Below, in pieces: positions 9,548 through 61,561 of a stretch of DNA of 64,000 nt. Position 1 is the first letter of the stretch, and every line of letters starts with the position of its first letter. The translations under genes were made by a program, and so were the position numbers. A model generated the notes under the pieces. It made no database searches. It was not told the origin of the DNA and worked only from the letters and a program-made list of their open reading frames with translations. This stretch comes from Prostheceraeus crozeri (Eukaryota > Platyhelminthes > Polycladida > Euryleptidae), in NCBI GenBank assembly GCA_907163375.1, contig CAJQUW010005361.1:1-64000 (forward strand), read 5' to 3'.

Positions 9548-9862
9548 AGTAGTATAGGGTATGACATCCCCACCCGATTTTTTTCGAATATTTTTCAATG
9601 TTTTACAAATTTTACACACTTGCAATTTTAGCGAAAAATATTACAAATATCAATTTCACGTAGTCCAAAAATTTAAGTAGTTTAAGAATTTCACATAGTC
9701 TAAAAATATCAAAATATTTATAAAAAAATGGAAGGAACCTCGAGAATATATCCTTCGTTATCACAATTAAAAACAAGTGAAATGGACATTGAAAAACATA
9801 AAGATAGAGTACGTTATATGAAAGATAAGGAATCTCAATTATTATTAAGATTAGAGCATTAT
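9548..9862 (+). repeat. Left terminal inverted repeat of Polinton A
   Basis: Matches the reverse complement of 25973-26348 with small differences. It starts with AGTAG and reaches about 45 codons into the first gene, so the same gene start is present at both ends of the element. The right copy has an extra palindromic insert of about 32 nt and a duplicated stretch of codons (DETKVEETSKMEETSK region) that this copy lacks. Confidence 0.85.
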
Positions 9863-10371
9863 GATAAGTTAAGAAAGAGATGGTCTAAAGTTAAGAATGC
9901 AACACAAGGAATTGGAATCTTTATAACAGTAAGTTTAGGGGTATTCACAATTATAATAACTTCAGGTGTTTTAGTAATTCCAGTAGTTGCTACAGATTTA
10001 ACAGGTACGGGTGTTTTTGCAACTTCACTTGTTTCAATGTTAGATAAATCTTTAATTACTAAGAAACGAAAATCATTAAAAAATAAACATTCTCACGTTA
10101 AATAAGTTTATGATAAACTGCATTATTACTTTCAAAGAGTATGTGATGATAATGTTATTACGTTAGATGAGATTGAAAAATTGATCAAATAGCTAATGAA
10201 GTAAATCAAATATCATTTCAATTACAGTCAGAAAAAGTTCATGACAAGAATAAACAGGTGGGTAAAATTTCTAATGAAGAAAATGATAAAATTTTTTTAG
10301 AAGAACTAAAAACTTTATTAAACAAAACTTTAGACGAAAAGATGTCAGACGACAGAGCAATAAAAAAATAA
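9728..10371 (+). pseudogene. Membrane protein encoded at the terminal repeat (Polinton A)
   Basis: The open part (9728-10105, 125 aa) has a charged helical N-terminus (HKDRVRYMKDKESQLLLRLE) and then a long hydrophobic stretch at residues ~62-105 that could form two membrane helices. A TAA at 10103-10105 interrupts it. The same frame continues with a YDKLHYYFQRV block and then needs a frameshift near 10175 to reach a Lys/Glu-rich tail ending at 10371. The first ~45 codons lie inside the terminal repeat, and the mirrored start occurs at 26150 on the minus strand. The ATG follows a TTTATAAAAAA motif. Function unknown. Confidence 0.55.
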
Positions 10372-12085: not shown

Positions 12086-12123
12086 TTTTCTTCTTCTTAA
12101 AAATAAAATTTTTTTATTAAATA

Positions 12124-12895
12124 ATGAGTGAAGAAATTTCTACAAACCTAGCATTAAATAAAAAACCTAAATTCAATCATCACCGTAATCTATCCAATAA
12201 AGTTTTATCAGTTAGTTGTGGAAGATCAGGATGTGGTAAAGCATATCTATTATTTAAAATTCTAACTACTCCAAACTTTTTGGATTATAACAATCTTATA
12301 ATTTATACAACAACAGCAGAACAACCTGTTTATCAATTTTTAAAATATGGATTTGAAAATAATCTTAATAAAACAGCAATTGCTTCATTATTCAAAGAAT
12401 ATGAAAAATCTGAATATGAAGAAGAAATAAGTTCGTGGTATGAAGAAGCAGCAAAAAATAATCAGTTAGTAGAATCCAATAAAAATAACCATATAAAGAT
12501 ACAATTAATAGATGATAGTGGTAATATGAAAGATCCTAGTAAACTAGATAAAACAATGAAGCATTGTGTAATTTTTGATGATTGCGTTAATGGTAGAAAT
12601 CAGTCAGTTCAGAAAAATTATTTCACAAGAGGTAGACATAATAACTGTAGTGTAAAAAACACAAGGTATGTATTCATTAGACGGAAGTGTCATTAGAAAG
12701 AATGCGAATACATTTATGCTATTTGAAATTAATGCAAGAAACTTAAGTGATTTGTTAAGAGATTTATGCGTAAGAGATAAAGATGAATTTAAACAATCGT
12801 GTAACAATGCTTGGTCAAAAGATTATGGCTTCATTACAATTAATATTGATAAAAAAATACATGAAAGAGTTATCGAACAATTGTTCTCTGACTAA
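12124..12895 (+). pseudogene. Packaging ATPase, frameshifted and altered in Walker A (Polinton A)
   Basis: The first 175 or so residues are open from 12124, then a frameshift near 12650-12665 moves the rest into the frame ending at 12895. Walker A at residues 33-40 reads GRSGCGKA: the invariant Thr/Ser after the lysine is Ala, which would weaken Mg-ATP binding. Walker B is CVIFDDCV near residue 142. The tail contains FMLFEINARNLSDLLRDL and a DEFKQSCNNAW block found in viral packaging ATPases. It diverges strongly from the B and C enzymes. The gene is inactive here because of the frameshift. The substituted Walker A could be ancestral or decay. Confidence 0.75.
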
Positions 12896-13078: not shown

Positions 13079-16000
13079 ATGAATGGTGAAATGTCTCTCG
13101 GACTAACGTCTAGGATTGATGAATTAAACAAGAAACAAATTGCTGAGTTTGATGCACAAATTAAACGTAGTAAACGCATTAAAAAACAGAAACGTGGAAC
13201 AAAAGAAATATTAGAAACACCTATTACTGATGTTTTTGAAGATGAAAGAATTAAGGATGAAGTGGGAGAAGATTTAATAAATCTTTTTGATCAGAATGAA
13301 ATTAAATATGATAATGTATGTTTTATTACTGTAGTAAATGATATACGTAAACTTTTAACAAATGGAAAAATTATTAATTTACTTGGAAAAGTTGTTAAAG
13401 ATAGTGATAATATAATTCAAAACTTTTACGTAAGCTTCTATAATAAAAAATCATTTGAAAAATGGTTTTCTAATCTAGATGAAAAATCAGACAGTAGTGA
13501 ATGGATTTTTACAGGAAATATGAAATATGAAGATTATGGAATGAAGTTTATACAAAGATCACATAGAGGTGCTGGCATTAATATGAAATATAGAATCAAA
13601 GAATATTTCGGTCAATATTGTTATATTCCTTCTGAAGATTTCTGCTTCATAAAATGTGATAATGTTCTACGTGGTTTCAGTAAAGAACAAGACGAAATTA
13701 TGAGAGAATTGTTTAATAATTTTTTATATAAATAGAAAGCTACATCTAGAACAGGAGAAATGTCAAACTGCAAATTTTCTCAATTCAATAGATACTTTGG
13801 AGAATGTGTTCAGTATTACAGTCCTACCAACCGTCATTTAAATCCTAGAGGTATTAAAACGACTCATAATTATGTTTATTATAATTATTTTCATGAAGGT
13901 TCATCAATTGGTCACTATTGTTTAATAGACAAGAATCATGAACCCGCAGCTATTAGAGAAATTGAAAATAATTTCAAACCAATATATAAAACAGTTAATG
14001 ATGAAAATTTAACAACACTTCCGTATAAAACTATAACAAAGAAATCAATTGACTATGGTTCAACATATATATGGGATCTCGAAACTTATCCAGATCCAAA
14101 ATATCCCACAGCTCATCCTATTGCTTATGCTTTAGGTGCTATTAATTTTAATAAATTTATATCTTGTTTACCAATGCAAAGATTGAAAGAATTAGACACA
14201 CGTTTGTTAAGTGATATGATTAATATTAAACAATCAAAAGATGAAAATGAAATTAAAGAACTCAAGAAACAGATAAGTGCATACAATAATTTAACTGAAA
14301 CAGAATTTAATAAACTTCAACGTTGTGTGAAAATAATTATTAGGAAACAAGATGAATGTCCGATCGGGGGAAACCCAGAGGACGCATGTCCGATCCACCA
14401 ATTTTTCAAAACTCTTGGAGAATTTAATTATTCGAAAGTAACTTTAATAGCTCACAATTCATCAGGCTTTGATTCCTATTTTCCGATAAAATCTAATTTT
14501 AAATTAACTAAAGCACCACTTAAAACTTCAAGAGGAATATTAACTGCTTCATTACAAAATCCTTATACAACTACAAGTGTTGGCAAATATATTCAAAAAT
14601 CTTTTAGATTTAATAATAATAAAAAATCATCACCTCGAGGTAAATTAGCACTCCAAACTATTATATGAAATGTAGTTATCAACATCTAAAAACAAGTCTT
14701 TCCAAATGGTGTGTGAATTTTAAAATTCCTACCAATGTGTGTAAATTAAATTATGAAATTGAAGACATAACACATGAAAATTATAAAGAAAAAGAAAATG
14801 AATGGAAACCATATTTAGTTAACGATATTCTTTCTTTAGCTTTTTGTATCTACAAATATAATAATGTTATGCGAGATTTAGTTGGCGATGATATAACTAC
14901 TAATTTAACATCCTCCGTTTTAACGTTTAACGGTTGGATGAAAAACGTACAAAATGACAACATAAATATTCATTCTCATACTGATTTATGGGCTAGAAAT
15001 TATATTAGAAAATCTGTTAAAAGTGGAAGAGTTTGAGCAAATATAAGAAAATACATATCGCCATTTTGTAACATCTTCTTACCAATATTAAAACAGTATT
15101 TACCTGGAAATAATTTAATAGATTTAATGAAACAGTATAATCAGTTGCAAGACAAGAATGAACTTGGCAAAGAAATTAAACATAAACTACTTGAACAAAA
15201 AAATGAATTTCTAATGGCTTTTGATGCAACATCTTTATATCCATCAGCTATGTATGATGAAAATTCAGAATACCCTAAATCTGAATCAGCTAGAAAATTT
15301 CGTCAAGAAGAAGAACGAAAAGTAGTATATAAATTTAATACTCAAACATTTAGACCTAAAACTGGAATATTCTCTGTTGTGTTTCAATTTCCGAATGATA
15401 TGTTTTTCCAACCAGTTCCTACAAAAGATAAAGTTAAAAATCAAAATAATAATTCTCATGTAAAAGTAATCAGGTTTAGAAATGGTATATGTTATGATGT
15501 ATTAACTTCTGTAGACATACAAGAAATTGTTAGATGTGGTGGAAAAATATTATCTATTACCGATGGTATAATCTATGAAGAAAATTATCACGTTTCACCA
15601 TTTCAAAAATACATTGAGAAACTTTTTAATTTAAGAAAAAATATATAAAACAGAAGGAAACACTGTAGGTGATGAGTTAATTAAATTATTGATGAATTCA
15701 CTATATGGAAAAACCGTACAGAAAGACATAACCACTAAATATCATTTATGGAATGAAAATACATTGAAGAAAAAATTTACTCAAGAAGTAAAAGATTTTT
15801 AAAAAGTAAATGATGAACAATATTTAGCGAAAGTAGAAATGGAAGATGATGAATTTCTTGAAGCTAATATTCAAAATGAATCTACGGCCAAAGGCCTGAG
15901 CAGCTGCGCGACAACATCATTCATGCCATCACATTTAGGTTCTTTTATTCTTGCTCACTCTAGACGAATCATGAATAATTTTATTTTAGAAATTAATGTT

Positions 16001-17554
16001 TTCAACGAAAAATACATTCATTATACAGATTCAGTAACAGCTGACACACCTGTAATATTGAGAAAGAATAATAAATTATTTATTTCTAGAATAGATAGTA
16101 TTGTAAACAATTATGAAAGTAACCCGTTTGAAATTAATCAAGATATGAAAGAAATTTCATTAGTTGATAATTTAGAAGTTTATACTCATAATGGATGGAG
16201 TAAAGTAAAAAAAGTTATTAGACATCTTACAAATAAAAGTATTTATAGAATAAGAACAAAAATGGGAATAGTAGATGTTACTGAAGATCATTCATTGTTC
16301 GATGAAACAGGTAATGAAATAAAGCCAGAAGAATTAAATATTGGAACAAATTTATTACATAATAAAGTATTTTTACATGACAACACAATAATATTCGAAC
16401 AAATTTAAAGTGATATTTATGTTAATGAACCACCTAATTTAATATGTAAACGAGCATTTATAGAAGGGTTCTTTTTAGGAGATGGCTCTGTTGGAATCTA
16501 TAATTATAAATCTGGAGTAAAAAATTGTTGTACTCTAAATAATCAAGACATTAACTTATTAAATAAATTAAAAACATATATCAATGAAGTTTATAATAAT
16601 GATTGTAAAATATATGATGCAATGAAATCATCCAGTGTATGTAAACTTAATTTTCGAAATCCAAAACAATATGCTAAATACTTTAGTGAAAATTATTATA
16701 ATCAGTTTAAAGAAAAACGTGTTCCTTATTATATTCTAAATGCTGAATATAATATTAGATATTGGTTCTTTGTTGGATTTCATGCAGCAGATGGAGACAA
16801 GAAATTCTTTATGCGTTTCACACAGAAAAATAAAGAAACCTTTAGTGGTTTATACAATTTGGCTTCATCTCTAGGTATTAATTTAGTAGTAGAGGAAAGA
16901 CAAGATAAACCATTATGTTTTAATGCGTATCAAGTTAAAAATGATATTTCCAAAGATGTTACCACTGTAAGATATTTAAATAATAAACCACAATATGTTC
17001 ATGATATTGAAACAGAAGATGGTGCATCTAATTGTGGTTTTCCATTAATTGTAAAAAACACCGATTCAGTATATATTTCTAATGAACTCTTCAATAAATT
17101 AGATGTTGCTGGATATGTTGGTGGGGAATTTTGTCAAGGTTAAAATGATTATGGGAATGGTGGAATTATATATGGATTGTTTATTGCTCCGAAAATAAAA
17201 TTCTGTATCACTGTAGATGAACAAGGAAGACTCAGTGAAAAGAAAACATTTAAAGGTTATTCACAAAATAAAGTAAAAGTAGAAGATTTTCTAAAATCAT
17301 ATTCGGGTAAAACATTATCGACTACAGTTAATAAACCATGGAAAAAATCTTTAGAAACTGGTATTAGTATTCCTGATAAAAATAATAATACTGAAGAAAA
17401 AAGATTTTCTGGTCAAATGAATATTCTTAAACGTCAAGCACCTGATGAAAATGAAATTATGTTACTTTATAACGGAGAAGATATTCAAGGCGAACTATTT
17501 GAAACAATCGTCAGTGAGAGTAATTTAAGTGATGATGATGACACGTGGAAATGA
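13079..17554 (+). pseudogene. polB: Protein-primed family B DNA polymerase containing an intein (Polinton A)
   Basis: The gene reads through 4.5 kb with several lesions: TAG at 13733, frameshift near 14665, TGA at 15034, frameshift near 15645, TAA at about 15799, TAA inside the intein at 16406 and TAA at 17141. Domain order is intact. An N-terminal Polinton-specific region has CYIPSEDFCFIKC. Exonuclease motifs are WDLETYPD (Exo I), AHNSSGFD (Exo II) and YLVNDILSL (Exo III). Polymerase motif A is FDATSLYPSAM, motif B is LLMNSLYGKT, and motif C is split by the intein at 16031-17059. The family copies Polinton DNA from a protein primer. The ATG at 13079 follows TTTTTTCTTTTAAAAAAT. All lesions make this copy inactive. 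Confidence 0.9.
16031..17059 (+). other. LAGLIDADG intein inside PolB motif C
   Basis: A 343-codon insertion lies between YTD and TDSVY of the polymerase, so that outside it the residues complete the YxDTDS catalytic motif. It starts with Ser and block A SVTADTPVIL. Block B is VDVTEDHSLF with TxxH at residues 84-87. Two homing-endonuclease motifs follow, FIEGFFLGDGSV and WFFVGFHAADGD. Block F is YVHDIETEDG and block G is FPLIVKN before a Thr at +1. The penultimate residue is Lys rather than the usual His. The site is the classical pol-c insertion point of archaeal and giant-virus DNA polymerases. One in-frame TAA at 16406-16408 shows this copy is no longer functional. It cannot be an intron: the termini are amino-acid motifs and no GT-AG boundaries fit. 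Confidence 0.9.
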
Positions 17555-17626: not shown

Positions 17627-17863
17627 TTAGTTTCTAATCGTTTTTTTTACAATTTCTAAAAGTTCAACATCAAATTCTTTAATATCATTAATTTCTTTTA
17701 AATAAGGGATAGTATTTTTATATTCCCCGAAATTTAAACATAAGAAATGAATTACCGTTTTATCATGATGTGAAATACAATAATAGACTTCTTTATTTGA
17801 ATCAATGTGAAATACTCCCTCTTCACCGAGATCTATCCAATTGCAATCAATTAGTACTTCCAA
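17627..17863 (-). pseudogene. Small minus-strand frame split by a fold-back insertion (Polinton A)
   Basis: A 78-aa frame of unknown function whose upstream part is disturbed by the inverted repeat at 17839-18279. Downstream of the stop of the 446-aa gene (18374), the same strand reads REILHYFPNYYSRHENN and an EIYTDSNK stretch up to the right arm of the repeat. This frame then offers HIDSNKEVYYCISHHDKTV beyond the left arm. The shared TTTATTTGAATCA on both sides suggests one small gene, interrupted and partly duplicated by the insertion. No domain is recognised. Confidence 0.35.
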
Positions 17864-18279
17864 AAGACCAATCTCGGGACGAATTTTTATTAAAGTTGCG
17901 AGCTTCCGAGCGCTTCGCTCGTCTTCAGGCAGGCAGAGGTAAAAGTGAAATCAGAGGGCAGCGTTCAAATAAAGAAGTTTTCTTGCTTCCGTAACTTTTT
18001 CTCATTTCTCACTTAATTCTAATGCTACCATTCAGTTTGATAGTAGTATGTATAACATAGAATTTTTGTATAGAGCACTTGAGTAATGTCTTTGTGTCAA
18101 CTATTATATCATGTAGTCGAAGTGAATTTTACTCTTGGCAATGTGATTGAATGGCGCTGCCCTCTGATTTCACTTTTACCTCTGCCTGCCTGAAGACGAG
18201 CGAAGCGCTCGGAAGCTCGCAACTTTAATAAAAATTCGTCCCGAGATTGGTCTTTTGGAAGTACTAATTGATTGCAATT
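17839..18279. repeat. Fold-back insertion with ~124-bp perfect inverted arms
   Basis: The left arm at 17839-17962 and the right arm at about 18156-18279 are exact reverse complements (AATTGCAATCAATTAGTACT at the ends, GCGCTTCGCTC inside), separated by a ~190-bp AT-rich spacer without a gene. Both arms look like 'coding' on opposite strands only because they are the same sequence. It lies inside a small minus-strand gene of Polinton A and resembles a miniature fold-back transposon or a hairpin produced by replication error. No clear target duplication beyond AATT is visible. Confidence 0.75.
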
Positions 18280-19760: not shown

Positions 19761-20631
19761 ATGATGTTAGCAAATGGTGGTGGAGGTGCATATATCCCGA
19801 ATAATCGTGAATCAGAAATAGAAATAGAAAACTATATCATGAAAACTGGAGACGTTTCATCTGGCCCATTACATATTTCTATTCTTCCGCAACAAAATAC
19901 AGAGTTAACAAATAAACAATATGTTGATACACAAATCAATGACTTAAAAGAAAAATATATAAATGTTTTGGTTCACTGATGAATGAATTAAAGTTGCTTA
20001 AACTTAATGACAAATCATTAAACGAAAAATTATTAAAACTTGATGAAAAGGATAGAGAGCTAGAAGTAAATATAGCAAAACTTTTAAAAAAAAATTCAGA
20101 ACAATCAAAAATTTTAATATTACTTTCTATTAAGTCAAAATCTGCAGTCATCAAAAATAAACATCAGATACAACTATTGAAAGGACAATTAGAAAATGAA
20201 TTAGAAAAACTTCCTAAAAAATTTTTCAAAATTTAAATAAGTTACAAGCTACATTCCAAAAAAGTGTTGATGAATTAAGTTCTAAAATTACTGAACAAAT
20301 GAAAAAGATGAATAGAATAATAGATGAAGTTAACTCACTAAATCAAAAAGTTGATAAAATGAAAACTCTTAAAATCAATTTAGAAAATGAATTAAAGAAA
20401 AATTATAAAGGAAATAAAGAACAATTAGATGCTATTAAAAATCAGTTAGATGTTCTTAAAGTTCAGTTGAATGCACTTAAAACGGCGTTGAAGATGAATC
20501 AGGAGAAAATGCAAGTTAATAGAAAAGAAATTAAAATACATCGCACGCTGCTTGACGCAATAGATAAAGTGCAACAGAAAATTAGTAAAGTTATCACGCG
20601 GTTGTTGTCCATTCACACACGTAAATCTTAA
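19761..20631 (+). pseudogene. Coiled-coil fibre-like protein with TKQYVD motif (Polinton A)
   Basis: Three consecutive frames (19761-19979, 19979-20236, ~20236-20631) read as one ~290-residue protein with two frameshifts. The N-terminus has a GGGGAYIP turn. It then has SGPLHISILPQQNTELTNKQ followed by YVD, the 'TKxYVD' signature found before the shaft of many phage tail fibres. Everything after this is heptad-like coiled coil (LNEKLLKLDEKDRELEVNIA, then NSLNQKVDKMK and NQLDVLKVQLNALK). This suggests a trimeric spike or fibre on the virion. No C-terminal knob domain is seen. The ATG context is TTATTCTTAAAAAATG. Recognition of the fibre motif is firm; the role in a Polinton is inference. Confidence 0.6.
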
Positions 20632-20636
20632 TAGAA

Positions 20637-20688
20637 CCTTGTTCAGAGGCTTTAGCCGATCCGACCAAAGGTCCTCAGGTTACTAACC
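20637..20688 (-). repeat. Inverted copy of the repeat at 22648-22700
   Basis: About 52 bp matching the reverse complement of 22648-22700 with two small differences. It contains the palindromic GGACCTTTGGTCC. The two copies enclose the small virion gene and the major capsid gene. A second, partial direct copy (GATCGGCTAAAGCCTCTGAACAAAG) covers the major capsid stop codon at 22616-22640. Confidence 0.75.
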
Positions 20689-20749
20689 AATCCTAAACGT
20701 AAATCTTAACGTAAATATTTTTCCCAAAAGTCAAATTTAATCCTAAAAA

Positions 20750-21216
20750 ATGCCTATAATTTATAAACACAATCTTAAAAATTTTGCTTCAAATAAAAAA
20801 ATTGCCCATGAACCATCTATGAAATCTGTTTACCATTATAACAATGTAGAAACAGTTCAAAAAGAAGGAGATGGTATATTTTCTGGCATCAGTGATAATA
20901 TAGGAAGTATCGTTAACTTGATTAAAAATAATAAAGATTTAATTACATCTGCTGCAAAAGGAGCAGCTGCTATAGGTAGTACAGGTATGCAATATCAAAT
21001 GCTGTTAAGTCTCAAAACGAATTAAAACAACTAGAAACTATTCGTAAACTTAAGAATGATTCTGAACCACTAAAAAAATTTAAAAAAGTCTCAGAGGAAA
21101 CAAAAAACAAAATTGCTAACATAGCAGCAAGGACTGATAGTAAACATAAGGAGAAATCAATTGAAGAAATAAGAGGTAATGGTGTGAACAGCGGAGCTGG
21201 TTTAGAAAAATTCTAA
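20750..21216 (+). pseudogene. Small virion-type protein upstream of major capsid, frameshifted (Polinton A)
   Basis: The frame is open for 91 codons, then a frameshift near 21005 moves the Lys/Glu-rich remainder to the frame ending at 21216. Residues ~42-80 contain GDGIFSGISDNIGSIVNLI and an Ala/Gly-rich AAKGAAAIGS stretch, an amphipathic segment like those of adenovirus protein VI or other membrane-active minor virion proteins. It lies directly before the major capsid gene, as the core protein does in Polinton B (58181-58663). The start follows TTTAATCCTAAAAAATG. Assignment as a minor virion protein is inferred from position and composition. Confidence 0.5.
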
Positions 21217-21290
21217 AATATATTCTAAAAAAGAATCCTAAGAAAATTACTTTTAGAAAAAACAAAAAAGTCAAATTATTTTTTATAAAA

Positions 21291-22625
21291 ATGTCTTCCC
21301 TGATTGAAAATAAATTTAGATTAGACGATCCTCCGTTCGTCAGTTACAATCAAAAAAAGAATGACTATATAAGAATTGCCATGAATCCCGGATTTTCTAG
21401 TAGAGTGAATACTGGAGGAGATTTAATCTTTGAAGTTGATAATCAACAAAGTTATTTATATTTATCTGATTCCTTTTTGCACTGTGAATATTCCTTATAT
21501 AGTGATGCCAATTTTACAACACCATTACCAGATACTGATAATATTGCATTAGAGAATAATTTCTTTCCAAGATTATTTACACAAATGCGTTTAGATGTTG
21601 CAACTCAAAATATAGAAACAATAAGTGATTCTCCAGGCGTAATTGATACAATGCTTAGATTTGTAACAATTGGTGAAAATAATAAAAATCATGAAATCGA
21701 AGGTCGTTTTGCAGATAATAGTGATGGTATAATTGTTCATGATTTAACTCACGCTGGAACAGATGCAGCAGGAATTGCGAAAGATGTAGAAAATATTGCA
21801 AATCATTTAAATAAAACAACTAATACTGCATATAAAGAAAGACGTGTTTTTAACAAGAAAAGTAAACAGACAGTAAATTGGTCATTGTCTCCATTATTCG
21901 GATATTTAGATTATGACAAAATATCATATCAATTAAAATTTAAATTAATAATTCATCGCACAGCAAATAATGAATTAATCTTTTATGGTAAGACTGGAAA
22001 AAAAGCTTATTTAAAAATTGATAGACTTGAGTGGTGGGTAAAACATATTACTCCTAGTTTAGAGGTTGAATTAACTATTGCAAAAAGATTAAATACTAAC
22101 AAACCAATTCCAGTAAATTTTCTAAAGCGCACTGCTAGTTCAGTAACTTTTTCAGAGCAAAGATTTAACTGGCATTTCACAAGGACATCAAAAACTCCAA
22201 GATATTTATTACTAACTTTTCAAAGAAATGATTCTCCAAGTTTTTATAAGAACAATAATCTTTTCCATATTAATACAATTCGAAGTTTACAAGTTGCTTT
22301 AAATCAAACACGTTCTACTATTGATCCATTAAGATTCGATGATACCAATAATCAATTTATGGAAGGATATGATGCTTATAGAAATCTTTGTAAAGAATTT
22401 GGGGTTGAACCACAATTAACTCCTGGAGATTGGAGACATTTATATCCTGTTTTCTGTTTCGATTTAAGTGCACAATCTGAAGATATTGTTAAAAATGGTT
22501 GTGATGTAACAATTAATATTGAAACGAGAGATTCCACAACTTCACTGATGGCTTATGGTTTACTGCTAGAAGATGTAAAATATTCTATTGAAATTCTTAA
22601 TGGAAAGATGGTTAGGATCGGCTAA
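21291..22625 (+). CDS. Major capsid protein, double jelly roll (Polinton A)
   Basis: An uninterrupted 444-aa gene, notable in a decayed element. It has the features of Polinton/adintovirus major capsid (hexon-like) proteins: an N-terminal strand region, the LENNFFPRLFTQMRLDV segment on the first jelly roll, an acidic loop around residues 130-170, LEWWVKHITPSLEVE-type strands in the middle, and a C-terminal block YPVFCFDLSAQSEDIVKNGC with a following NIETRDSTTSLMAYG strand pair. Trimers of this protein build the capsid faces. The ATG is preceded by TTTTTTATAAAA. The stop lies inside a repeat unit (22616-22640). Confidence 0.8.
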   Translation: MSSLIENKFRLDDPPFVSYNQKKNDYIRIAMNPGFSSRVNTGGDLIFEVDNQQSYLYLSDSFLHCEYSLYSDANFTTPLPDTDNIALENNFFPRLFTQMRLDVATQNIETISDSPGVIDTMLRFVTIGENNKNHEIEGRFADNSDGIIVHDLTHAGTDAAGIAKDVENIANHLNKTTNTAYKERRVFNKKSKQTVNWSLSPLFGYLDYDKISYQLKFKLIIHRTANNELIFYGKTGKKAYLKIDRLEWWVKHITPSLEVELTIAKRLNTNKPIPVNFLKRTASSVTFSEQRFNWHFTRTSKTPRYLLLTFQRNDSPSFYKNNNLFHINTIRSLQVALNQTRSTIDPLRFDDTNNQFMEGYDAYRNLCKEFGVEPQLTPGDWRHLYPVFCFDLSAQSEDIVKNGCDVTINIETRDSTTSLMAYGLLLEDVKYSIEILNGKMVRIG

Positions 22626-22647
22626 AGCCTCTGAACAAAGTTCTATA

Positions 22648-22700
22648 GGTTAGTAACCTGAGGACCTTTGGTCCGATCGGCTAAAGCCTCTTGAACAAAG
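22648..22700 (+). repeat. Repeat downstream of the major capsid gene
   Basis: Sequence GGTTAGTAACCTGAGGACCT and onward, matching the inverse of 20637-20688. It is preceded by a related direct half-repeat. The central GGACC-TTT-GGTCC is a 13-bp palindrome that could act as a transcript 3' hairpin for both flanking genes. Confidence 0.7.
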
Positions 22701-23314: not shown

Positions 23315-24684
23315 ATGTATTCTACAAATTCCGAAAATTTAATTAAATTAAAAATTGCTAATTTAGATTTATTGAACTATCTATTAAACGTACATTCTGG
23401 CCATCGGTCACACACCGGTCGACTGCACACCGGAGGTGACATACAAAAAACATTAGAAAACTTTCCTGGATGTATTTGGAGTAAATATTCAAAAGAAGAA
23501 CATCTTCCTGGTCATTCATATACCGGTCCAGGTACTCGATTAGATATAAGACTAGATGAGAATAATAATCCAAAACCAGGTGAAGAACCAATAAACAGAG
23601 TTGATGCAGCAGCTTATAGACACGATTTAGCTTATCGAAATCATGACCTAAGTTCTCGACTTGAAGCAGATAAGAAAAAGATTTAGGAATTAGATAATAT
23701 TCAAAATCCTACATTTAGAGAAAGAATTGAAAGAATGTTCGTAAAGAAAGCATTACAAGCAAAAATACTGTTCAGTCAGGGTTTAGACAAAACTCATAAC
23801 TCTGAAACCTACGCCTCCGAAATGTCGAATGATCTAGATCGGCATAGTGGAACTTATGCCTCCGAAATTCATAAAGAATATAGAAAGCCGAAATATCTAT
23901 TGAATGTAAAAGTAGTTAATAAAGATGATATTTGGAGTGCTGATCTTATTGATATGCCGAATGAAGGAGGCTTTAAGTACGCATTGACCGTTATAGATTT
24001 ATTTACTAGATACGCTTGGGCAAAGCCTTTAAAAAACAAAAGTGGTCTGTCAGTTAAATATGCGTTTGAAGAAATCTTTAAGGAAAGTAATAGAAACCCA
24101 AGGAAGCTATTCGTTGATAAAGGATCTGAATTTTATAATAAAAATGTTAAGTCACTATTTGAAACCGTTTATTCAACTGAAAATGCTGGAAAGGCTGTAG
24201 TAATAGAGAGATTTAATAGATCATTAAAAGGCAAGATCTTCAAAGATTCTTACAGAACAAGGAAATCAGAAATGGTTAAAAATATTACCAGGATTACCAG
24301 GATATTACCATGATTAGGTTAAGGATATTACCATTTGTAGATCAGTACAATAATAAAGTTCATTCAGGTATTGAAGAAACTCCAAAGAATGCTTCTGACG
24401 ATCCTGATTTGATGCGAAAGAAAATATTCGAAAATAATTATTCGAATGAGAGAAATTCGAATTTGCAGAAACGTAAGCCGAAATTTAAGATTGGAGATAG
24501 AGTAAGGATATTTAATTATAAGAATAAATTTGAAAAAGGTTTTGTAGGCTATTGGACTAATGAGATATTTGAAGTTTGTAAAATAAATCAAACTTATCCG
24601 ATTACTTACGAAATCAAAGATTTAGATGATGATAAAATCACTGGCAGATTTTATCAAAACGAATTACAAATAACTGATTTTTAA
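23315..24684 (+). pseudogene. Phospholipase A2 domain continuing in frame into integrase (Polinton A)
   Basis: Residues ~67-125 match the parvoviral VP1-type phospholipase A2 domain: the calcium loop YTGPGTRLD, then VDAAAYRHDLAYRNHD with the catalytic His-Asp. TAG at 23684-23686 interrupts the frame. The same frame then goes on through ERMFVKKALQAKIL into a retroviral-type integrase: WSADLIDM (first Asp), LFVDKGSEF (second Asp) and VIERFNRSLKGK (Glu). A frameshift within a small ATTACCAGG tandem duplication near 24290 precedes the C-terminal SH3-like part (KFKIGDRVRIFN, then FEKGFVGYWTNE). There is no chromodomain and the N-terminal zinc-binding part of integrase is replaced by the lipase region. 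Either a true fusion or two genes joined by deletion. Confidence 0.75.
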
Positions 24685-24733: not shown

Positions 24734-25162
24734 TTATTCAATTCCCTTCTTCAATTCTAACATAATATCAAGAAATGGTACTCCTTCCTGTAATTTAAGT
24801 AAAACATAAAGACATAACTGACCGCAATAAGTCGTTCCTGGTTTTTGAATTTGAAACGTATTGTATGTTCCATTGCCAAGTATTTCTCTCACTTCATTTG
24901 TAGGTGGAAGTCCATAAGAGTCAAAATAGTAATTATCTCCATTTTTATTAGTCATACCTGCTGACCAATGTACTCCTTTTTGATCTGACGTGTGGAGATT
25001 TGTTACGAAATTTACAGTTGACTTATTTTTGATCAATTGTAATTCGGCTCTCATTAGGACATGAAAATTCTTTATTCCTAATCGATTAGCGATCTTATTT
25101 AAATCGAAATTTGTAGTTGTTTGTTTACCGTATTGTTTTAGGAACTCATTTATGTTGCCCAT
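24734..25162 (-). CDS. Adenain-like cysteine protease (Polinton A)
   Basis: An intact 142-aa gene on the minus strand, converging on the integrase gene. The catalytic residues are in the order of the adenovirus/Ulp1 clan: His65 in KGVHWSAGM, Asp81 in YYFDSYGLPP, a Gln at 104-106 and Cys113 in YCGQLCLYVL. The protease of Polintons matures capsid and core proteins, usually after Gly-Gly-type sites, and several proteins here have such sites. The size is short but complete for the family. The ATG at 25162 follows CATTTAAAA. It is one of only three long uninterrupted genes in the element. Confidence 0.85.
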   Translation of the reverse strand: MGNINEFLKQYGKQTTTNFDLNKIANRLGIKNFHVLMRAELQLIKNKSTVNFVTNLHTSDQKGVHWSAGMTNKNGDNYYFDSYGLPPTNEVREILGNGTYNTFQIQKPGTTYCGQLCLYVLLKLQEGVPFLDIMLELKKGIE

Positions 25163-25958
25163 TTTAAATGGAATAAATTTCTGATAGTGTCCCTCTCAAA
25201 GAAGAGAAATCAGAAAGGGGGGATTGATTTAAAACTGTCTCATAATGATGACTTACCTTACTACTTATTCGATTTGAAATGATTATATTATAATTATTCT
25301 AATTTACATTGTTTTACAGATTTCCATTTTCTTCATGAACTTCATTCGTTAATAAAAGGGATTGTTTAAAATTGCTATAACAACTATCTTGCATATCGGC
25401 GTTTATGCGTTCTAAATTTAGAAGAATTGCTTTTATTGTCACCGCACTCTTATGTGCTTAACCTATTCATGACTGCACAATGGGAAGTACTTTTATTGCT
25501 ACCCTTATGTGTTTTAACCTATTCATGTGGAAAGAGAAAACGCTAAATGAATTTTGTGAATGGATTTCTAAAACTGACTTTGAAAACAGACTTTGAAAAC
25601 TGACTTTGAAAACAGACTTTGAAAACTGATTCTGAAAATAATTTACGTAGGGGTAAATTGAACTGTCAAAATTTTACGGACGCGTAAATTGAACTGTCAA
25701 AAAATTACCGATGCGTTGAAATGACAAGAGATTCCACGATAATTTTAGGGGAAAGCTGTTAGATGTTTTCCGTTGCTAGAACAATAAATCTCTCTCTCTC
25801 TTCAATCTCTGTCTCTCTTCAATTATCAGCCAGTGTACGGGTTCATTGAATAATTTTGAGTTTATGAGTTACAATGATCTTCTAGTTCACACAATTAGTA
25901 CTTTAAATAATGGTGAGAGTACAATGACGAAGAATGTCTAAGTAATAATTGCGTCTTC
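25163..25958. other. Noncoding right part of Polinton A with tandem repeats
   Basis: No gene is visible. A tandem repeat with a unit of about 17 nt (CTTTGAAAACTGA/CTTTGAAAACAGA variants) covers about 25565-25640. A ~40-nt segment (CTTTTATTG..ACC..CTTATGTG..TAACCTATTCATG) is present twice at ~25431-25470 and ~25492-25530. (G)TAAATTGAACTGTCAAAA occurs twice at 25652-25702, and a CTCT-rich tract follows at 25790-25820. Confidence 0.6.
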
Positions 25959-26150
25959 TTAATTTTTATGATGTTCTAATCTTAATAATAATTGAGATTC
26001 CTTATCTTTCATATACCTAACTCTATCTTTGTGCTTTTCTTTATTCATTTTTTCAATGTCAATTTCACTTGTTTTTAATTGAGATAACGAAGGATATATT
26101 TTCGAGGTTTCTTCCATTTTTGAGGTTTCTTCCACTTTTGTTTCATCCAT
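25959..26150 (-). pseudogene. Right-end duplicate of the terminal-repeat gene start (Polinton A)
   Basis: 63 codons repeating the beginning of the gene at 9728 (IYPSLSQLKTSE, then RVRYMKDKESQLLLRLEH), preceded here by an extra KVEETSKMEETSK stretch. The similarity ends at the inner boundary of the terminal repeat, after which the frame stops within three codons. It is a by-product of the terminal repeat entering the coding region, or the remnant of an originally longer gene. Confidence 0.6.
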
Positions 26151-26348
26151 TTTTTTAATAAATATTTTGAAATTTTTAGACTATGTGAAATTCTTAAACT
26201 ACGTGAAATTGATATTTGTAATATTTTTCGCTAAAATTGCAAGTGTGTAAAATTTGTAAAACATTGAAAAATGTTCGAAAAAAATCGGGTGGGGATGACA
26301 TCCGGTGAGGAGCGAAGCGTGGCGCCGGATGTCATACCCTATACTACT
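25973..26348 (-). repeat. Right terminal inverted repeat of Polinton A
   Basis: Reverse complement of the left terminus. It contains an extra segment with the palindromic ends GACATCCGG and CCGGATGTC around a GAGCGAAGCG core, at about 26297-26330, absent from the left copy. The outermost 20 bases are identical to those of the left end. Confidence 0.85.
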
Positions 26349-50935: not shown

Positions 50936-51148
50936 GTTGAGTACACTGTGTTTGGGAACGTCTATGATCGAACTTGTGTGGTTTGGTTCTGAGCACTTGG
51001 GTACGTACCGATAGACGTCCGTTGTTTGATTTTGAATGGGTTTGCTCAATTGCGACTATTGTGACTATTGCAACCATTGTAATCAAGATGACACATTGAT
51101 TTTCCTTTTACGTAGACAAACTATGCTATAAATATGAGATAGTTTTTG

Positions 51149-51658
51149 ATGACATACATAATGATGACTAGTATCCCAACGTCGTGGGTTGTCGCAAGAG
51201 ACCTTGGATATTCGTTCAAAGCCATAGAAACTGTAACAAATCTCAGTGAAAATATCAACGCTGGTGATTTAGTTGATCGACTAATGGATCTAGATGAGCA
51301 TGCTATGAATCACAATTTGGATCGTAGGTGGATAGAGGATTTCTCCATGCTACACTGCAATGATAGTGAAATTAGGAGGATCAAATTGGAACGATATGGA
51401 AAGAAGGAGACATCTGAAAGTGTTTTAATAAAAAGTTCTCCCAATAAAAGTGACTTCAGAAGGAAATTAGAACAAGAGACATTTAAATTATTATGTGAAC
51501 GGAACTGCGTTAAATGTTTTAAACAGGAACGATCCCTTCTCTTTTTGCCATGTTCTCATAGCGTTATGTGTTCTACATGTTATGTACCCTTTGAAACTTC
51601 ATCTTGTCCCCTTTGCGATGAAGAAATATCTTCAACAGTCACTGTATATCGTGCATGA
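51149..51658 (+). CDS. IAP-type RING protein with UBA-like region (Polinton B)
   Basis: About 170 aa. The last 50 residues match the RING of inhibitor-of-apoptosis proteins: CVKCFKQERSLLFLPCSHSV followed by MCSTC, then CPLC and a terminal ISSTVTVYR strand, all eight ligands present. The N-terminal part (TSWVVARDLGYSFKAIETV and DLVDRLMDLDEH) has the three-helix pattern of the UBA domain that precedes the RING in cellular IAPs. There is no BIR domain. TATAAATA lies at 51127-51134, so transcripts probably begin near 51157 and the ATGs at 51161 or 51164 may be the real start. A role in blocking host apoptosis or degrading host factors is inferred from the family. Confidence 0.65.
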   Translation: MTYIMMTSIPTSWVVARDLGYSFKAIETVTNLSENINAGDLVDRLMDLDEHAMNHNLDRRWIEDFSMLHCNDSEIRRIKLERYGKKETSESVLIKSSPNKSDFRRKLEQETFKLLCERNCVKCFKQERSLLFLPCSHSVMCSTCYVPFETSSCPLCDEEISSTVTVYRA

Positions 51659-51720
51659 TGAGTCATCATGCAGGTCTGTGATTGGTCACTATTGTGTCTT
51701 TGTGTGACTTTTCTATATAA
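51653..51720 (+). promoter_or_regulatory. Palindromic AP-1-type site, CCAAT and TATA box before 51769
   Basis: A 19-bp palindrome GCATGATGAGTCATCATGC (51653-51671) is centred on the bZIP site TGAGTCA. A reversed CCAAT (TGATTGGTCA) lies at about 51679-51688. TATATAA is at 51714-51720, followed by GGAGGAC. The ATG at 51769 is 55 nt downstream of the TATA box, a normal polymerase II distance. The palindrome overlaps the RING gene stop codon. Confidence 0.6.
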
Positions 51721-51768
51721 GGAGGACATTGTACCGTTCTATTTCAAGCATAATTTGAGGCTAATACA

Positions 51769-52392
51769 ATGTCAATCAGCATGTCGTTCACTACCAACAT
51801 TCCCATTTCAATAATTTACCGAAGTCAACTCTTCACGGGCAATATATTTTATTCTGCCGTGAATATAACTGGCTATAAAGCGGATTTGGTGGATCTGATG
51901 GAGGAAATAGTGAAGTATTTCCGCTGCGGAGAGGACGTTGTGGTGCAGAGAATGTTGATGAGAGTCGTGAACAACGCTCTTACACGAGTTGCAAGATTCT
52001 GGCTCAACGAAGTATTTCGCCCACTATCTCAAACGGAGATTGTACCGGAATACTCTCGCTGTTGGTGCAGCAGTATCCAACGGAAACTCAACACATGTCT
52101 CCATGACATTATCACCTCCAGCTACTATGGCGAGAAGGGTGAGAAGTGCAAACTGGACTTGTTCAGTGGACCGCCATCAGTAAGCATCAATGTGGCTGCT
52201 CAAGGACATTCTGAGGTGATCAGTTTGCGGGCATACTATGCCAATATTTTAAAGACTTTCCATTTAAAACCTTGCTGTATGTGCTGTCCTATTTCAAAAC
52301 ATCTAATGAAAGACATTGAGCAGCTCATAACTGCTACAAATGAGACTCTAGCCGATGTGAGTGTATATCAGTTTCCCTCTACAACTTGCTAA
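51769..52392 (+). CDS. Unknown 207-aa protein (Polinton B)
   Basis: An open gene behind a clear TATA box (51714-51720). No domain is recognised. The middle is helical (DLVDLMEEIVKYF, VVVQRMLMRVVNNALTR). The C-terminal part is rich in Cys (LKPCCMCCPIS). It takes the place that the 1122-1532 gene has in element C, before the small Gly-Gly protein, but no sequence similarity is evident. Its own promoter and open frame support it as a real gene. Confidence 0.55.
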   Translation: MSISMSFTTNIPISIIYRSQLFTGNIFYSAVNITGYKADLVDLMEEIVKYFRCGEDVVVQRMLMRVVNNALTRVARFWLNEVFRPLSQTEIVPEYSRCWCSSIQRKLNTCLHDIITSSYYGEKGEKCKLDLFSGPPSVSINVAAQGHSEVISLRAYYANILKTFHLKPCCMCCPISKHLMKDIEQLITATNETLADVSVYQFPSTTC

Positions 52393-52520
52393 GTGTTTTA
52401 TGTAATTTTATACGTACCAGCAACAAACTCTGTGTGAATGCTTGTAAACTTTTATATATAATGTTGTAAGTACTAAGCAAAAATTGTAATTGTATTATCT
52501 ATTTCCATATTAGAATAAAA

Positions 52521-52913
52521 ATGTCTGTAAAACGGAAGGCATCTTCTCGTCAATCGAAACGGTCCTTCAAACCTTCAAGTCAGTTTAAAAAGGCGTTGCG
52601 AAAGTTAAACAGGATACATGATAATAAGAAGAAGTGTAAATTGATTCAAAATTCAAGTGATGATTTCATTCGTGATTTAGCTTTTGCAATACACAAATGT
52701 CTACCTATTTACAAGCCTCTGTTGAATGCTGGCTCTTTGAATAGCATAAAAAAGTTTTCAAATCCAAGGAGTAGTGATAAGAAAAGGCGAAACTTAATTC
52801 AGCGCGGTGGTGGTGGGTTTCTAAGTATGTTAAATGATATTGGAAACAGTATTAATGGTGTAATCAATAGTCCGCTTGGAAGGATTGCAGCAACTGCTGC
52901 AATGTTAATATAA
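52521..52913 (+). CDS. Small basic protein with Gly-Gly/hydrophobic tail (Polinton B)
   Basis: A 130-aa protein starting MSVKRKASSRQSKRSF, very basic for about 95 residues, then QRGGGGFLSMLNDIGNSING and a hydrophobic Ala-rich end (RIAATAAMLI). It is the counterpart of 388-744 in element C: the same basic head, a shared FSNP/FISNP then a Lys/Arg run and QxGG turn. A TATATATAA-like box at about 52454 sits 65 nt before the ATG. A precursor of a DNA-binding or membrane-active virion peptide is inferred. Confidence 0.6.
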   Translation: MSVKRKASSRQSKRSFKPSSQFKKALRKLNRIHDNKKKCKLIQNSSDDFIRDLAFAIHKCLPIYKPLLNAGSLNSIKKFSNPRSSDKKRRNLIQRGGGGFLSMLNDIGNSINGVINSPLGRIAATAAMLI

Positions 52914-52954
52914 GGTTAGCGAATCATAAAGTGACACGTCATCACTTTGATTGA

Positions 52955-52980
52955 TGAGTCATATATAGGTGTATATAAGG
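52955..52980 (+). promoter_or_regulatory. AP-1-type site and TATA box before 53065
   Basis: TGAGTCA at 52955-52961 and TATATAAGGAAGAC from 52972, closely resembling the TATATAAGGAGGAC at 51714 ahead of another B gene. A CACGTCATCAC element lies upstream at about 52935. The ATG follows 85 nt after the TATA box. Confidence 0.6.
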
Positions 52981-53064
52981 AAGACGCTTTAATGATATTT
53001 TACCACTTTCAAGTGACAATTCATTTGCGCTGGTTGAAAGCTCCGAATTAGTACTTGTTGAAAC

Positions 53065-53799
53065 ATGACTCAGAAAATGTATACAATCAGAGAGGAAGGT
53101 GACGCTTTTGAGCAAGATCTCTTGAAGCTTCGTCCGACACGAAAGGTGCAAGGGATTGGAAATACGTTCTACTTTCAAACCTTGAATTATGGTGATGATG
53201 GCTTTTATCTTCAAGTTCCATTCTTCCACAGTAATGGTATGTCTACATCAGGGTATAGCAATATGAGACAAATGCGAGTGACTTTTCCAAAATGGCAACA
53301 GGTGATTCTTAAAACTATTGACTCTTTCGCGAAAGAATGTGTTGAGCTGCCTGAAAGTGCTCCCACTCATTGGAGAAAGGCATTAGAGGAAGGAGTTGGT
53401 TATAAGGAATTGCCGGAATTCGATACACTGTTTTTAAAACTATCTGATCATTTTCAAGCATTCGATCTCTTTACAAACGCGATGGAATGTGAGGATCTGA
53501 AACGGGGCCGCTATATGGGCTTAGTTCACGTTACCGGACTTTATATTGGCTCACATGGTTCGACCGGTAAAGTCGCATCTTTACAAATGAAGGTTCTTCA
53601 ACTAGTCTATGAACCACTACCAATTGATAAATGTTTAATTAACATTGATAAGACTGCTTCAAGTGATGGGAAGGAAGAGAGCAAAAAGCGAGGTCGGAAA
53701 TCTAAAGATGGGAATCCTAAATTGAAGTTGAAGCGCCAAGATGCTGACTTGAAAACTTTCTATAATCCTAATTGTGATGAGGAAACACAAATGTTTTAA
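53065..53799 (+). CDS. Conserved Polinton protein, candidate nucleic-acid-binding protein (Polinton B)
   Basis: A 244-aa gene homologous to the spliced gene at 2363-3138 in C. The shared core is G.YMGLVHVTGLYIGSHGSTG followed by KVASLQMKVLQLVY, and both have a Lys/Arg-rich C-terminal tail (KKRGRKSKDGNPKLKLKRQD here). The N-terminal half has a strand-rich pattern (TFYFQTLNYGDDGFYLQVPF). Conservation between diverged Polintons and the charged tail suggest a replication or packaging partner, with a single-strand DNA-binding protein as my best guess. No intron is visible here, unlike C. Confidence 0.6.
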   Translation: MTQKMYTIREEGDAFEQDLLKLRPTRKVQGIGNTFYFQTLNYGDDGFYLQVPFFHSNGMSTSGYSNMRQMRVTFPKWQQVILKTIDSFAKECVELPESAPTHWRKALEEGVGYKELPEFDTLFLKLSDHFQAFDLFTNAMECEDLKRGRYMGLVHVTGLYIGSHGSTGKVASLQMKVLQLVYEPLPIDKCLINIDKTASSDGKEESKKRGRKSKDGNPKLKLKRQDADLKTFYNPNCDEETQMF

Positions 53800-53940
53800 T
53801 TTGTAAATGTTTTAATTTGTAAATGTAACTTGAAAGTTTCTATTCTGAATGTAAATAAACTTGATCTGGAACATGTGTCTGTTTTGTTGTTCTAAGCAAA
53901 ATTAGCGGGATGATGAGTTTAATGTTAATGGAATTATAAG

Positions 53941-54576
53941 ATGACAGATTTTCGTCTATTCACTGATCGCACAATGTGTGTCGCTGGACCAAGTCAGTCC
54001 GGTAAAACTACATTTGTAACTGAATTGCTACAATATAGAAATGAAATGTTTAACAAGGAAATTAAGAGAGTCAAATGGTATTGTGGAATATTTCAACCAC
54101 AACTACATTCTGCACTTCGCCAGAAAGGTTATGAGGTGAAGCAAGGGTTGCCATCAACTGAGGATATCAAAGCAGGTGACTTACTAGTATTAGATGATCT
54201 ATTACGAGAAAGCAAATCTTCAAAGGATGTAACTGAAATGTTCATTCAAACTGCACATCATAGGGAAGCTTTTATTATCTACATCACCCAAAACATCTTC
54301 GATGGAGGGAAAGAGCAAAGAACTAGAAGTTTGAATACACATTATTTGGCAATATTTAAAAATCCAAGAGATAGCAGTCAGATACATCATCTCAGTAGAC
54401 AGATATTACCTCAACAACCTAAAGTACTTTCAAAAATATATGAAGATGTAACAAAGAAACCACATGGTTATCTATTTATTGATCTAACCCAGGAATGTCC
54501 GGAACGACTTCGATTTCGAACAAATATCATACCTAATTCCGCTGAACCAATGACAGTTTTCTCGGTTCACAGTTAG
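53941..54576 (+). CDS. Packaging ATPase (A32/FtsK-HerA type), intact (Polinton B)
   Basis: 211 aa. Walker A GPSQSGKT is at residues 16-23 and Walker B DLLVLDDLL at 80-88. FIIYITQNIFDGG and NTHYLAIFKNPRDSSQIHHL hold the further conserved polar and arginine residues. The protein translocates element DNA into capsids in the Polinton-like virus group. Element C has a closely related N-terminus (1-356), whereas A has a much more diverged version. It is followed after 40-55 nt by the next gene on the same strand. Confidence 0.9.
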   Translation: MTDFRLFTDRTMCVAGPSQSGKTTFVTELLQYRNEMFNKEIKRVKWYCGIFQPQLHSALRQKGYEVKQGLPSTEDIKAGDLLVLDDLLRESKSSKDVTEMFIQTAHHREAFIIYITQNIFDGGKEQRTRSLNTHYLAIFKNPRDSSQIHHLSRQILPQQPKVLSKIYEDVTKKPHGYLFIDLTQECPERLRFRTNIIPNSAEPMTVFSVHS

Positions 54577-54615
54577 TTTTAAGCAATGTACTTTGTTGCC
54601 TTATTATTTTCAAAC

Positions 54616-55266
54616 ATGTCGTATTCAAAGATGGTAGTCATTCCTCAAGAGGAGTATGTACAATTGACTACATTACAAAGTGCACAGGAAGTCAAAAATA
54701 TAGATCAACCTATTACGAATCAACTTAAGGAACTAACACAAAAGGATATGGAAATTCAGAAGATTAAGGATCCCTATCGACGAATGCAGTTAGCAGCTGA
54801 AAACATTGACGAGAGGCGACAGATTCGTGACAAGTTGCGACGATTTATAACCTTGTCAACACCTCGACCATATCGTGTGCGCGCTGAGCGATTATTTGAC
54901 TTCATTGATCCACATGTGAAGTTCAATGAGAGAGGGGAGATAATAGATGAAACAACTGGTGATGTTATTAGAAATAGTCACATAGATGACCTTCTACAAT
55001 ATGCTGTCAGAGATGTAAGGCGAAAACTAGGTGCACCACAAGGGTGGACATATTTTCAGAAAAATTTATCTGATCAAAATGTACCTCACAATATTATTGG
55101 AGGACCGACTGTGAATGAATTGGATAAGGGTCACTTACAAGATGGATCAAAGAGTAAAACACCCACGATGGCGGTCAAGCGAGAGCTTGCAGATCCCGAT
55201 GATCTGCAACCAAAAAGAGCTACTAGGCGCTCAATGCGTGTTGCGAAGGAGTATAGTAAATATTAA
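54616..55266 (+). CDS. Conserved helical Polinton protein of unknown function (B)
   Basis: About 216 aa from the Met of MSYSKMVVIPQEEY; the Met five codons later (54631) is also possible. The N-terminal half is helical and charged (NIDERRQIRDKLRRFI). A middle globular part has RAERLFDFIDPHVKF. A motif APQGWTYFQKNLSDQNVPHN follows, which I associate with a widespread Polinton gene lying between ATPase and integrase or capsid genes. The tail is basic (KRATRRSMRVAKEY). Function is unknown. Confidence 0.55.
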   Translation: MSYSKMVVIPQEEYVQLTTLQSAQEVKNIDQPITNQLKELTQKDMEIQKIKDPYRRMQLAAENIDERRQIRDKLRRFITLSTPRPYRVRAERLFDFIDPHVKFNERGEIIDETTGDVIRNSHIDDLLQYAVRDVRRKLGAPQGWTYFQKNLSDQNVPHNIIGGPTVNELDKGHLQDGSKSKTPTMAVKRELADPDDLQPKRATRRSMRVAKEYSKY

Positions 55267-55433
55267 GCAAATATGAATTAAGCCTTGCCTCTCTCATATC
55301 ATGTCGTTACAAAAATTTTGCTGTTGTTTGAAATCTGCGCTCGAAGGCAAAGGAGAAGAGGGCATAGAGGTTGATATCAATTGTGTTAGCAGTTGCTGTG
55401 CGAGTAATACGCGTGCAAATCAGAACAAAGACG

Positions 55434-56522: not shown

Positions 56523-56562
56523 GCTAATATAGCATGTGACTTCTTCCATATATGACTTTAAC

Positions 56563-58137: not shown

Positions 58138-58180
58138 GGCTTTACGCTCTTGTGACTTCCATAGTTATTCAATAGTCATA

Positions 58181-58663: not shown

Positions 58664-58673
58664 AGCTAATACG

Positions 58674-61520: not shown

Positions 61521-61561
61521 ATTTAAGTTTAATGTTTGCCTAAAGTTTGTTATTTTATTAG

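Follow-up and report, generated by a model that had tools for sequence, protein, structure and literature searches.

The locus examined here is related to the inteins that interrupt the active site of PolB-type DNA polymerases. The PolB intein of Mimivirus lies between the YGD and TDS of motif C, an allele named pol-c, and the intein of N. equitans occupies the same position; direct homing has been called implausible for the Mimivirus element (PMC549080). A preprint describes the pPolBs of polintons as harbouring homing endonuclease domains that vary in kind and in position, and takes these as a hint that inteins have invaded them (Krupovic et al. 2024, PMC11071308, citing Jeong 2023), and GIY-YIG and HNH endonucleases have been described in the polinton-like viruses of cryptophytes (PMC12220804). 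Metazoan genomes, in turn, have been stated to lack inteins, and this has been used as a reason for regarding inteins as drug targets (PMC5784728, PMC8529194). The present analysis concerns a stretch of 64,000 nucleotides from the polyclad flatworm Prostheceraeus crozeri (assembly GCA_907163375.1, contig CAJQUW010005361.1, positions 1 to 64,000, forward strand; hereafter the window), in which a 343-codon LAGLIDADG intein is found in a single reading frame (16031-17059, + strand) inside motif C of the polymerase of a Polinton, here called element A. The intein is genuine, belongs to a type already described, and stands where published surveys say none exists.

The insertion point is exact, with YTD (16022-16030) to the left of the intein and TDS (17060-17068) to its right. 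Block A, SVTADTPV (16031-16054, +), opens with the Ser1 nucleophile, and block B, VDVTEDHS (codons 81-88, 16271-16294, +), contains the TxxH motif. The two LAGLIDADG motifs, GFFLGDG (codons 146-152, 16466-16486, +) and GFHAADG (codons 249-255, 16775-16795, +), each have the catalytic Asp, which is the pattern of a monomeric LAGLIDADG homing endonuclease. Blocks F and G, YVHDIETEDGASNCGFPLIVKN (16994-17059, +), end in LIVKN, with a terminal Asn (N343) followed by the Thr (+1) of the polymerase and with the penultimate His absent. Ser at position 1, TxxH and a C-terminal Asn followed by Thr are features of class 1-type inteins. A first-pass annotation of this DNA had noted a start of SVTADTPVIL, the TxxH, two endonuclease motifs and an Asn end before Thr, all of which can be read on the + strand, and had placed the insertion at the site used by giant-virus PolB inteins, which agrees with the YGD/TDS junction given for Mimivirus in PMC549080.

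The same annotation had called the intein full-length, which is correct for its length but not for its intactness. An in-frame TAA stop stands at intein codon 126 (16406-16408, +), and the surrounding polymerase is broken. Its N-extein side (13760-16030, +, read as a three-frame translation) ends in IHYTD and matches Pfam DNA_pol_B_2 with 30.5 bits on 14665-15033 and 36.4 bits on 15127-15645 (cut-off 25.8), and its C-extein side (17060-17554, +) starts with TDSVYIS, supplying the Thr +1; stops or frame changes lie near 14666, 15034 and 15646-15802 and at 17141 (stop codon 17141-17143). With a stop within the intein and several breaks in the polymerase, the window copy is dead. The pieces on either side of the internal stop were searched separately against profiles. 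The N piece (16031-16405, +), which holds blocks A and B and the N-terminal part of the Hint domain, matched NCBIfam intein_Nterm (TIGR01445) with 36.9 bits (cut-off 24.5) and Pfam Intein_splicing with 20.4 bits, under its cut-off of 35.8. The C piece (16409-17059, +), with the endonuclease and the C-terminal Hint part, matched Pfam LAGLIDADG_3 with 29.4 bits (cut-off 22.5), scored under the cut-offs of Hom_end and LAGLIDADG_1, and had no match among the NCBIfam profiles. Both the splicing and the endonuclease character are backed by a profile above its cut-off.

Further copies are present in the same genome. A search of the whole assembly (2.05 Gb, 14165 contigs) for the intein splicing family returned 25 matches, each on a different contig (78-827 kb) and lying in an open frame 467-1547 residues long; none scored above the Pfam cut-off and the window copy itself is absent from the set, and these 25 further copies are a lower bound. 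In 24 of them the insert lies in one simple frame between the same left and right boundaries, measures 342-351 residues and begins with Ser1 (24/24), and because the boundaries are shared in this way the insert is not a chance reading. Among these 24, 21 are free of stops and 3 have one or two; the remaining copy, L013, has one stop and is 97% identical to another copy of 350 residues over its residues 1-342, which leaves 21 stop-free inteins among the 25. When random substitutions were simulated at 9% of one intein, only 0.6% of 500 runs stayed stop-free. Several of the intein-bearing copies, like that of the window, have a broken polymerase. The window intein is similar to those of L004 and L015, to which its N piece is 97.9% and 96.8% identical as DNA and the intein as a whole 97-98%.

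The unbroken copies make it possible to consider the protein as such. For relatives, the L002 intein was used as the query, and 719 proteins matched; here and in two further protein searches, which matched 262 and 276 proteins, 120 were listed and the counts below refer to those. In an alignment of 30 sequences (the unbroken L004 intein, the L002 intein and 28 relatives drawn from the 120 listed), Ser1, the TxxH (T84 and H87), both endonuclease Asp residues and the final Asn were invariant. The unbroken L004 intein is predicted to fold as a Hint domain with a LAGLIDADG endonuclease, its AlphaFold model having a mean pLDDT (predicted local distance difference test) of 90.5 and a pTM (predicted template modelling score) of 0.90. 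The best PDB matches to this model by Foldseek were the endonuclease-bearing inteins 7qsu, 2cw7, 1dq3 and 1vde, followed by I-DmoI, and the best named viral matches were polymerases of a phycodnavirus, Pandoravirus hades and Megavirus. By sequence alone, matches to the PDB were weak (E 0.007 and worse).

The same genome contains a large number of polymerase genes without the intein. A 32-base pattern spanning the junction and lacking the intein, allowed up to 3 mismatches, was found 832 times on the forward and 774 times on the reverse strand of the whole genome (1606 matches), and the same pattern read backwards was found 1 + 0 times. Of the first 100 places, which were listed, four were read, and all four match both flanks of intein-bearing copies, the flanks meeting exactly at the junction. 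Against the two flanks of L024, the identities are 98.6% and 98.2% for the empty copy L044, 98.4% and 98.0% for L045, and 91.5% and 89.6% for L047; for L046, compared with L012, they are 99.4% and 96.8%. L044 and L046 are open over nearly the whole stretch read, and L045 and L047 are broken. Occupied copies thus coexist with copies whose site is precisely empty and whose flanks are as much as 97-99% identical. Outside this genome, the polymerase part just upstream of the junction was used as the query, and BLASTP found the intein in none of the 120 listed relatives (of 262): 107 align straight over the junction without insertion and 13 fall short of spanning it. The organisms named among these relatives are Lottia gigantea and Macrostomum lignano. 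The nearest one listed, P0121, on a metagenome contig of 4744 bases, is 98% identical over 620 residues and its site is empty. The P0121 polymerase is 98-99% identical to element A's family, and its contig could stem either from host DNA in the sampled material or from a free form of the element.

A second Polinton in the window, element B (51000-64000), has a polymerase (61782-63998, -) whose motif C is empty (GGDTDS). The first-pass annotation had concluded from this that the intein is a mobile insertion. That conclusion stands on the full and empty copies of one family, and its stated reason does not. Element B was rejected as the empty counterpart of element A, as its polymerase belongs to another pPolB family and gave only a 21-residue match to that of element A (E 0.02); because of this difference in family, its empty site is no evidence of mobility within this lineage.

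Selection was estimated as the ratio of nonsynonymous to synonymous divergence (dN/dS) in 20 copies that are free of stops and open in their upstream flank, and which fall into intein lineages A, B and C of 15, 3 and 2 copies. Between lineages, the whole intein gave dN/dS values of 0.26, 0.38 and 0.20, its endonuclease part 0.21, 0.40 and 0.17, and its two splicing parts 0.18-0.39; the upstream polymerase flank gave 0.29, 0.25 and 0.27. Over all pairs of 19 copies, the intein had a median ratio of 0.36, taken from the 105 of 171 pairs in which dS exceeded 0.05, and the flank a median of 0.20, taken from 122 pairs. These values are signs of purifying selection on the coding sequence. Synonymous divergence between lineages was 0.21-0.37 in the intein and 0.24-0.34 in the upstream flank, and from lineage A to B it was uneven along the intein, at 0.11 in the N part and 0.39 in the endonuclease part; this unevenness suggests recombination within the intein.

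The window copy also appears to be a mosaic. Its intein is 97-98% identical to L004 and L015, whereas its downstream flank is 93.1% identical to L024 against 88.8-89.0% to L015 and L004. When 120 binned sites that separate two lineage C copies (the L004/L015 type) from four lineage A copies were followed along the window, all 59 sites in the intein were of C type. Upstream there were 12 C and 2 A sites, although with L015 alone as the reference most of the far upstream flank was of the other type. In the 200 bases that follow the intein there were 12 C, 4 A and 4 other sites, and the next stretch, 200-480 bases downstream, gave 3 C, 22 A and 2 other. This pattern shows that elements have recombined, the type switching some 200 bases past the downstream end of the intein. 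A co-converted flank is what homing would leave behind, and ordinary recombination would leave it likewise.

The relatives of the intein place it among the polymerase inteins of the large-DNA-virus kind. The best five, P0001-P0005, are 43-45% identical across the whole intein and are inserted at the same site in polymerases called Polinton-type, a term that for these five rests on their match to the element B polymerase and on motifs. The other 115 listed relatives are 28-42% identical and contain PF00136, the domain that marks the PolB of giant viruses and of cells. An organism is named for three of them, two archaeal records (P0045 and P0059) and one alga (P0060), and most of the rest probably come from giant viruses. 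Trees were built from inteins taken from the motif C site, with 107 and 64 rows and no outgroup root; 17 of the 120 listed relatives, which did not fit the extraction pattern, were left out of the trees and of the motif counts below (103 extracted), and the smaller tree drops 43 of the 107 rows, including P0081 and P0090. The intein described here grouped with those of other Polinton-type polymerases: the nine Polinton-type inteins formed one group among inteins ending in Lys-Asn (KN), with a Shimodaira-Hasegawa-like approximate likelihood-ratio test (SH-aLRT) value of 100 in the 107-row tree and support of 100/100 in the 64-row tree. In the larger tree the inteins ending in His-Asn (HN) are mostly separate, with P0081, P0090 and the Polinton-type P0001-P0004 among the KN rows; in the smaller one, the 17 other HN rows lie on one side of a branch supported at 99/99. 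The kinship of the window intein with polymerase inteins of large DNA viruses is supported by these trees and by the structural matches. Gene flow between Polinton-like viruses and large DNA viruses, as originally proposed for this locus, is upheld as far as this affinity goes. Viral contigs searched for the intein and for the polymerase gave no match.

Several of the listed proteins deserve separate mention. P0060, which comes from the green alga Chloropicon primus and is named DNA polymerase delta, contains an intein splicing domain and matches this intein at 34% over 98%. The polymerase of P0009 has two intein-like inserts, one at an upstream ANS site and one at motif C. The cluster of P0005 has 121 member sequences, and another genome may hold many intein-bearing Polinton polymerase copies.

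The penultimate His of inteins is usual but not universal, and the Lys-Asn end of the window copy had initially been regarded as unusual. This view was not sustained. Among the 103 extracted relatives, which are themselves related so that the counts are not independent, KN is the commonest ending with 69, followed by HN with 25, SN with 7, and LN and AN with 1 each; a penultimate His is accordingly absent in 78 of 103. The His in the five-residue stretch of block F follows the same division, being present in 25/25 HN inteins and in only 5/69 KN inteins. The missing pair of His residues is therefore the norm in the KN group and no defect of the window copy, and Lys-Asn was rejected as the mark of a special or dead intein.

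The polymerases on either side of these inteins give a different picture from the inteins themselves. The flanks of element A's polymerase family had no BLASTP match (1e-3) to the 120 intein-bearing proteins, a comparison limited by the short exteins in several of those records. The element B polymerase, by comparison, is 40-54% identical to P0001-P0005 in its longer piece and 30-36% in its shorter piece, and P0241 is 73-74% identical to P0001 on either side of the junction and has no insert there. Members with and without related inteins hence occur in at least two distinct Polinton polymerase families, and transfer of the intein between these families is the simplest reading.

In class 1 inteins, an acyl shift at Ser1 is followed by transfer to Thr+1, cyclisation of the terminal Asn and religation of the exteins. 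By analogy, an unbroken copy of this intein would excise itself from the polymerase after translation by means of Ser1, Thr+1 and the final Asn, and excision with religation would restore the active site of the polymerase. The endonuclease would recognise and cut intein-free polymerase genes at motif C, and repair of the cut would copy the intein into the empty site (homing), for which the many empty sites of this genome would provide the substrate needed. Splicing and DNA cutting are inferred from the sequences, and so is homing as the source of the presence and absence of the intein and of the recombination between copies. Overall, it is likely that the locus represents a class-1-type LAGLIDADG intein at the pol-c site of a multi-copy animal Polinton polymerase, which would splice and home when unbroken. 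Several points weigh against this. The block F His and the penultimate His, which are the usual helpers of the last splicing step, are absent; the dN/dS values come from stop-free copies only and from pairs that are not independent; the mosaic is not clean, with mixed sites upstream and in the first 200 bases downstream; the 25 occupied sites are only a lower bound; and the pattern of presence and absence could also be the outcome of losses in which full copies were converted to the empty allele.

The last of these points leads to an alternative that is unlikely but deserves more weight than the others, namely that the intein is ancestral and no longer moves, that the many empty sites go back to an empty allele which expanded or to which full copies were converted, and that the mosaic reflects ordinary recombination. 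The three intein lineages differ about as much as their upstream flanks, which fits long co-residence, and lineages A and B each have empty copies at their side (L044, 98%, and L046, 97-99%, respectively). However, with no intein in any of the 120 listed polymerase relatives, 13 of which do not span the junction, ancestral presence would need many exact losses, and the endonuclease dN/dS of 0.17-0.40 would be expected if cutting still matters. It is less likely again that the intein is a relic that folds but no longer splices, with the intein-bearing copies having dead polymerases and being replicated by intein-free ones. The broken polymerases of the window and several other copies are in keeping with this, as are the two missing His residues, whereas KN endings are common in relatives, the dN/dS of the splicing parts lies at 0.18-0.39 between lineages, and some of the frames around the 25 matches are long enough to fit the intein and most of the polymerase.

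The remaining alternatives question the origin or the identity of the insert. That the contigs belong to a giant virus, a protist or another contaminant rather than to the animal is very improbable. Wnt genes, which to our knowledge are confined to animals, gave 30 exon matches on 11 contigs of the assembly and were found in 0/14 control genomes (a weak control, as the six named ones are prokaryotes). The contigs with Wnt and those with the intein do not overlap, and in a small sample the repeats shared by the two sets are few (3 stretches of at least 100 bases in 2 contig pairs, the best 705 bases at 86%), which leaves some room for contamination. Yet the intein copies are spread over 25 contigs of up to 827 kb, the assembly contains more than 1600 empty-junction matches, and the element in the window is surrounded by retroelement and DNA transposon pieces. 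Polinton polymerases are known to have inserts of their own, which would speak for a regular polymerase domain or an insert peculiar to this lineage; the chance of this is negligible given the intein and LAGLIDADG profiles above their cut-offs and the predicted intein fold, and it is ruled out by the exact absence of the insert in P0121 and in the empty genomic copies. Beyond the homing intein favoured here, a broader view is conceivable with slightly less than even chances: a nested selfish element in the animal germ line, whose intein homes among about 1,600 polymerase genes of one Polinton family, has crossed distant polymerase families by its endonuclease and behaves like a gene drive.

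The host of the window copy, element A, is a Polinton (Maverick) in its own right. Its left terminal inverted repeat (9561-9867) pairs with the right one (25963-26301) in four stretches that are 85-96% complementary, and the span between them is 16.7 kb, within the expected range of about 15-20 kb. Besides the PolB, it encodes a double jelly-roll major capsid protein (21180-22622, +; Pfam DJR-like_dom, 62.7 bits) and a retrovirus-type integrase (23687-24310, +; Pfam rve, 40.8 bits), which together make up a Polinton hallmark set. A packaging ATPase and an adenovirus-type protease were also sought, and the open frames at 12121-12693 and 24737-25195 had no Pfam match. Just downstream of the polymerase lies a perfect inverted repeat of 125 bases (17839-17963 and 18155-18279, 191 bases apart), and inverted repeats of 32 and 47 bases (20631-20691 and 22615-22691, about 2 kb apart) lie around the capsid gene. 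Element B has an integrase with a chromodomain (55368-56519), and the window also contains reverse transcriptases, a gypsy-type retroelement and pieces of Tc1/mariner and hAT type.

The statement that inteins are missing from metazoan genomes needs to be qualified, now that one is seen in many copies in an animal. That inteins invade Polintons has already been suggested in print, and to this the present case adds a concrete example with many copies, both full and empty, in an animal genome. No report of an intein in an animal Polinton was found in the literature searched (titles and the starts of abstracts), although one may exist, and none is given in the accessible portions of PMC3671162, PMC5718144 and PMC10120064. 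An animal genome with both full and empty sites offers a way to trace the gain, loss and homing of an intein, and it makes testable how pol-c inteins reach distant polymerases, with Polintons as a possible carrier. The intein seems to be a parasite of a parasite; if the broader view is true, this animal's genome is home to a protein-splicing parasite of a viral transposon that arose naturally and acts like a gene drive.

To summarize the comparison with known systems, the window intein resembles the giant-virus pol-c inteins in its site, its Ser1, its combination of Hint and LAGLIDADG parts, its neighbouring place in the trees and its structural matches to phycodnavirus and Pandoravirus polymerases, but its host gene is a Polinton-type polymerase with many integrations in an animal genome. 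With the archaeal PolB inteins (PI-PkoII, 2cw7; Neq Pol, 5oxw) it has the fold class in common, with a structural match to PI-PkoII by Foldseek and weak sequence matches (E 0.007-0.01), whereas inteins of that type, with an HHF block F and HN ends, mostly group apart. As in the cases mentioned in PMC11071308, a homing endonuclease insertion is found in a polinton pPolB. Closest of all are the inteins of P0001-P0005, which lie at the same site (YMD or YSD before TDS) and, at 43-45% identity, fall into one clade with the present intein (100/100). They differ in that P0001-P0004 end in HN rather than KN, and in that their polymerases are of another pPolB family, though both kinds, as represented by the families of elements A and B, match Pfam DNA_pol_B_2.
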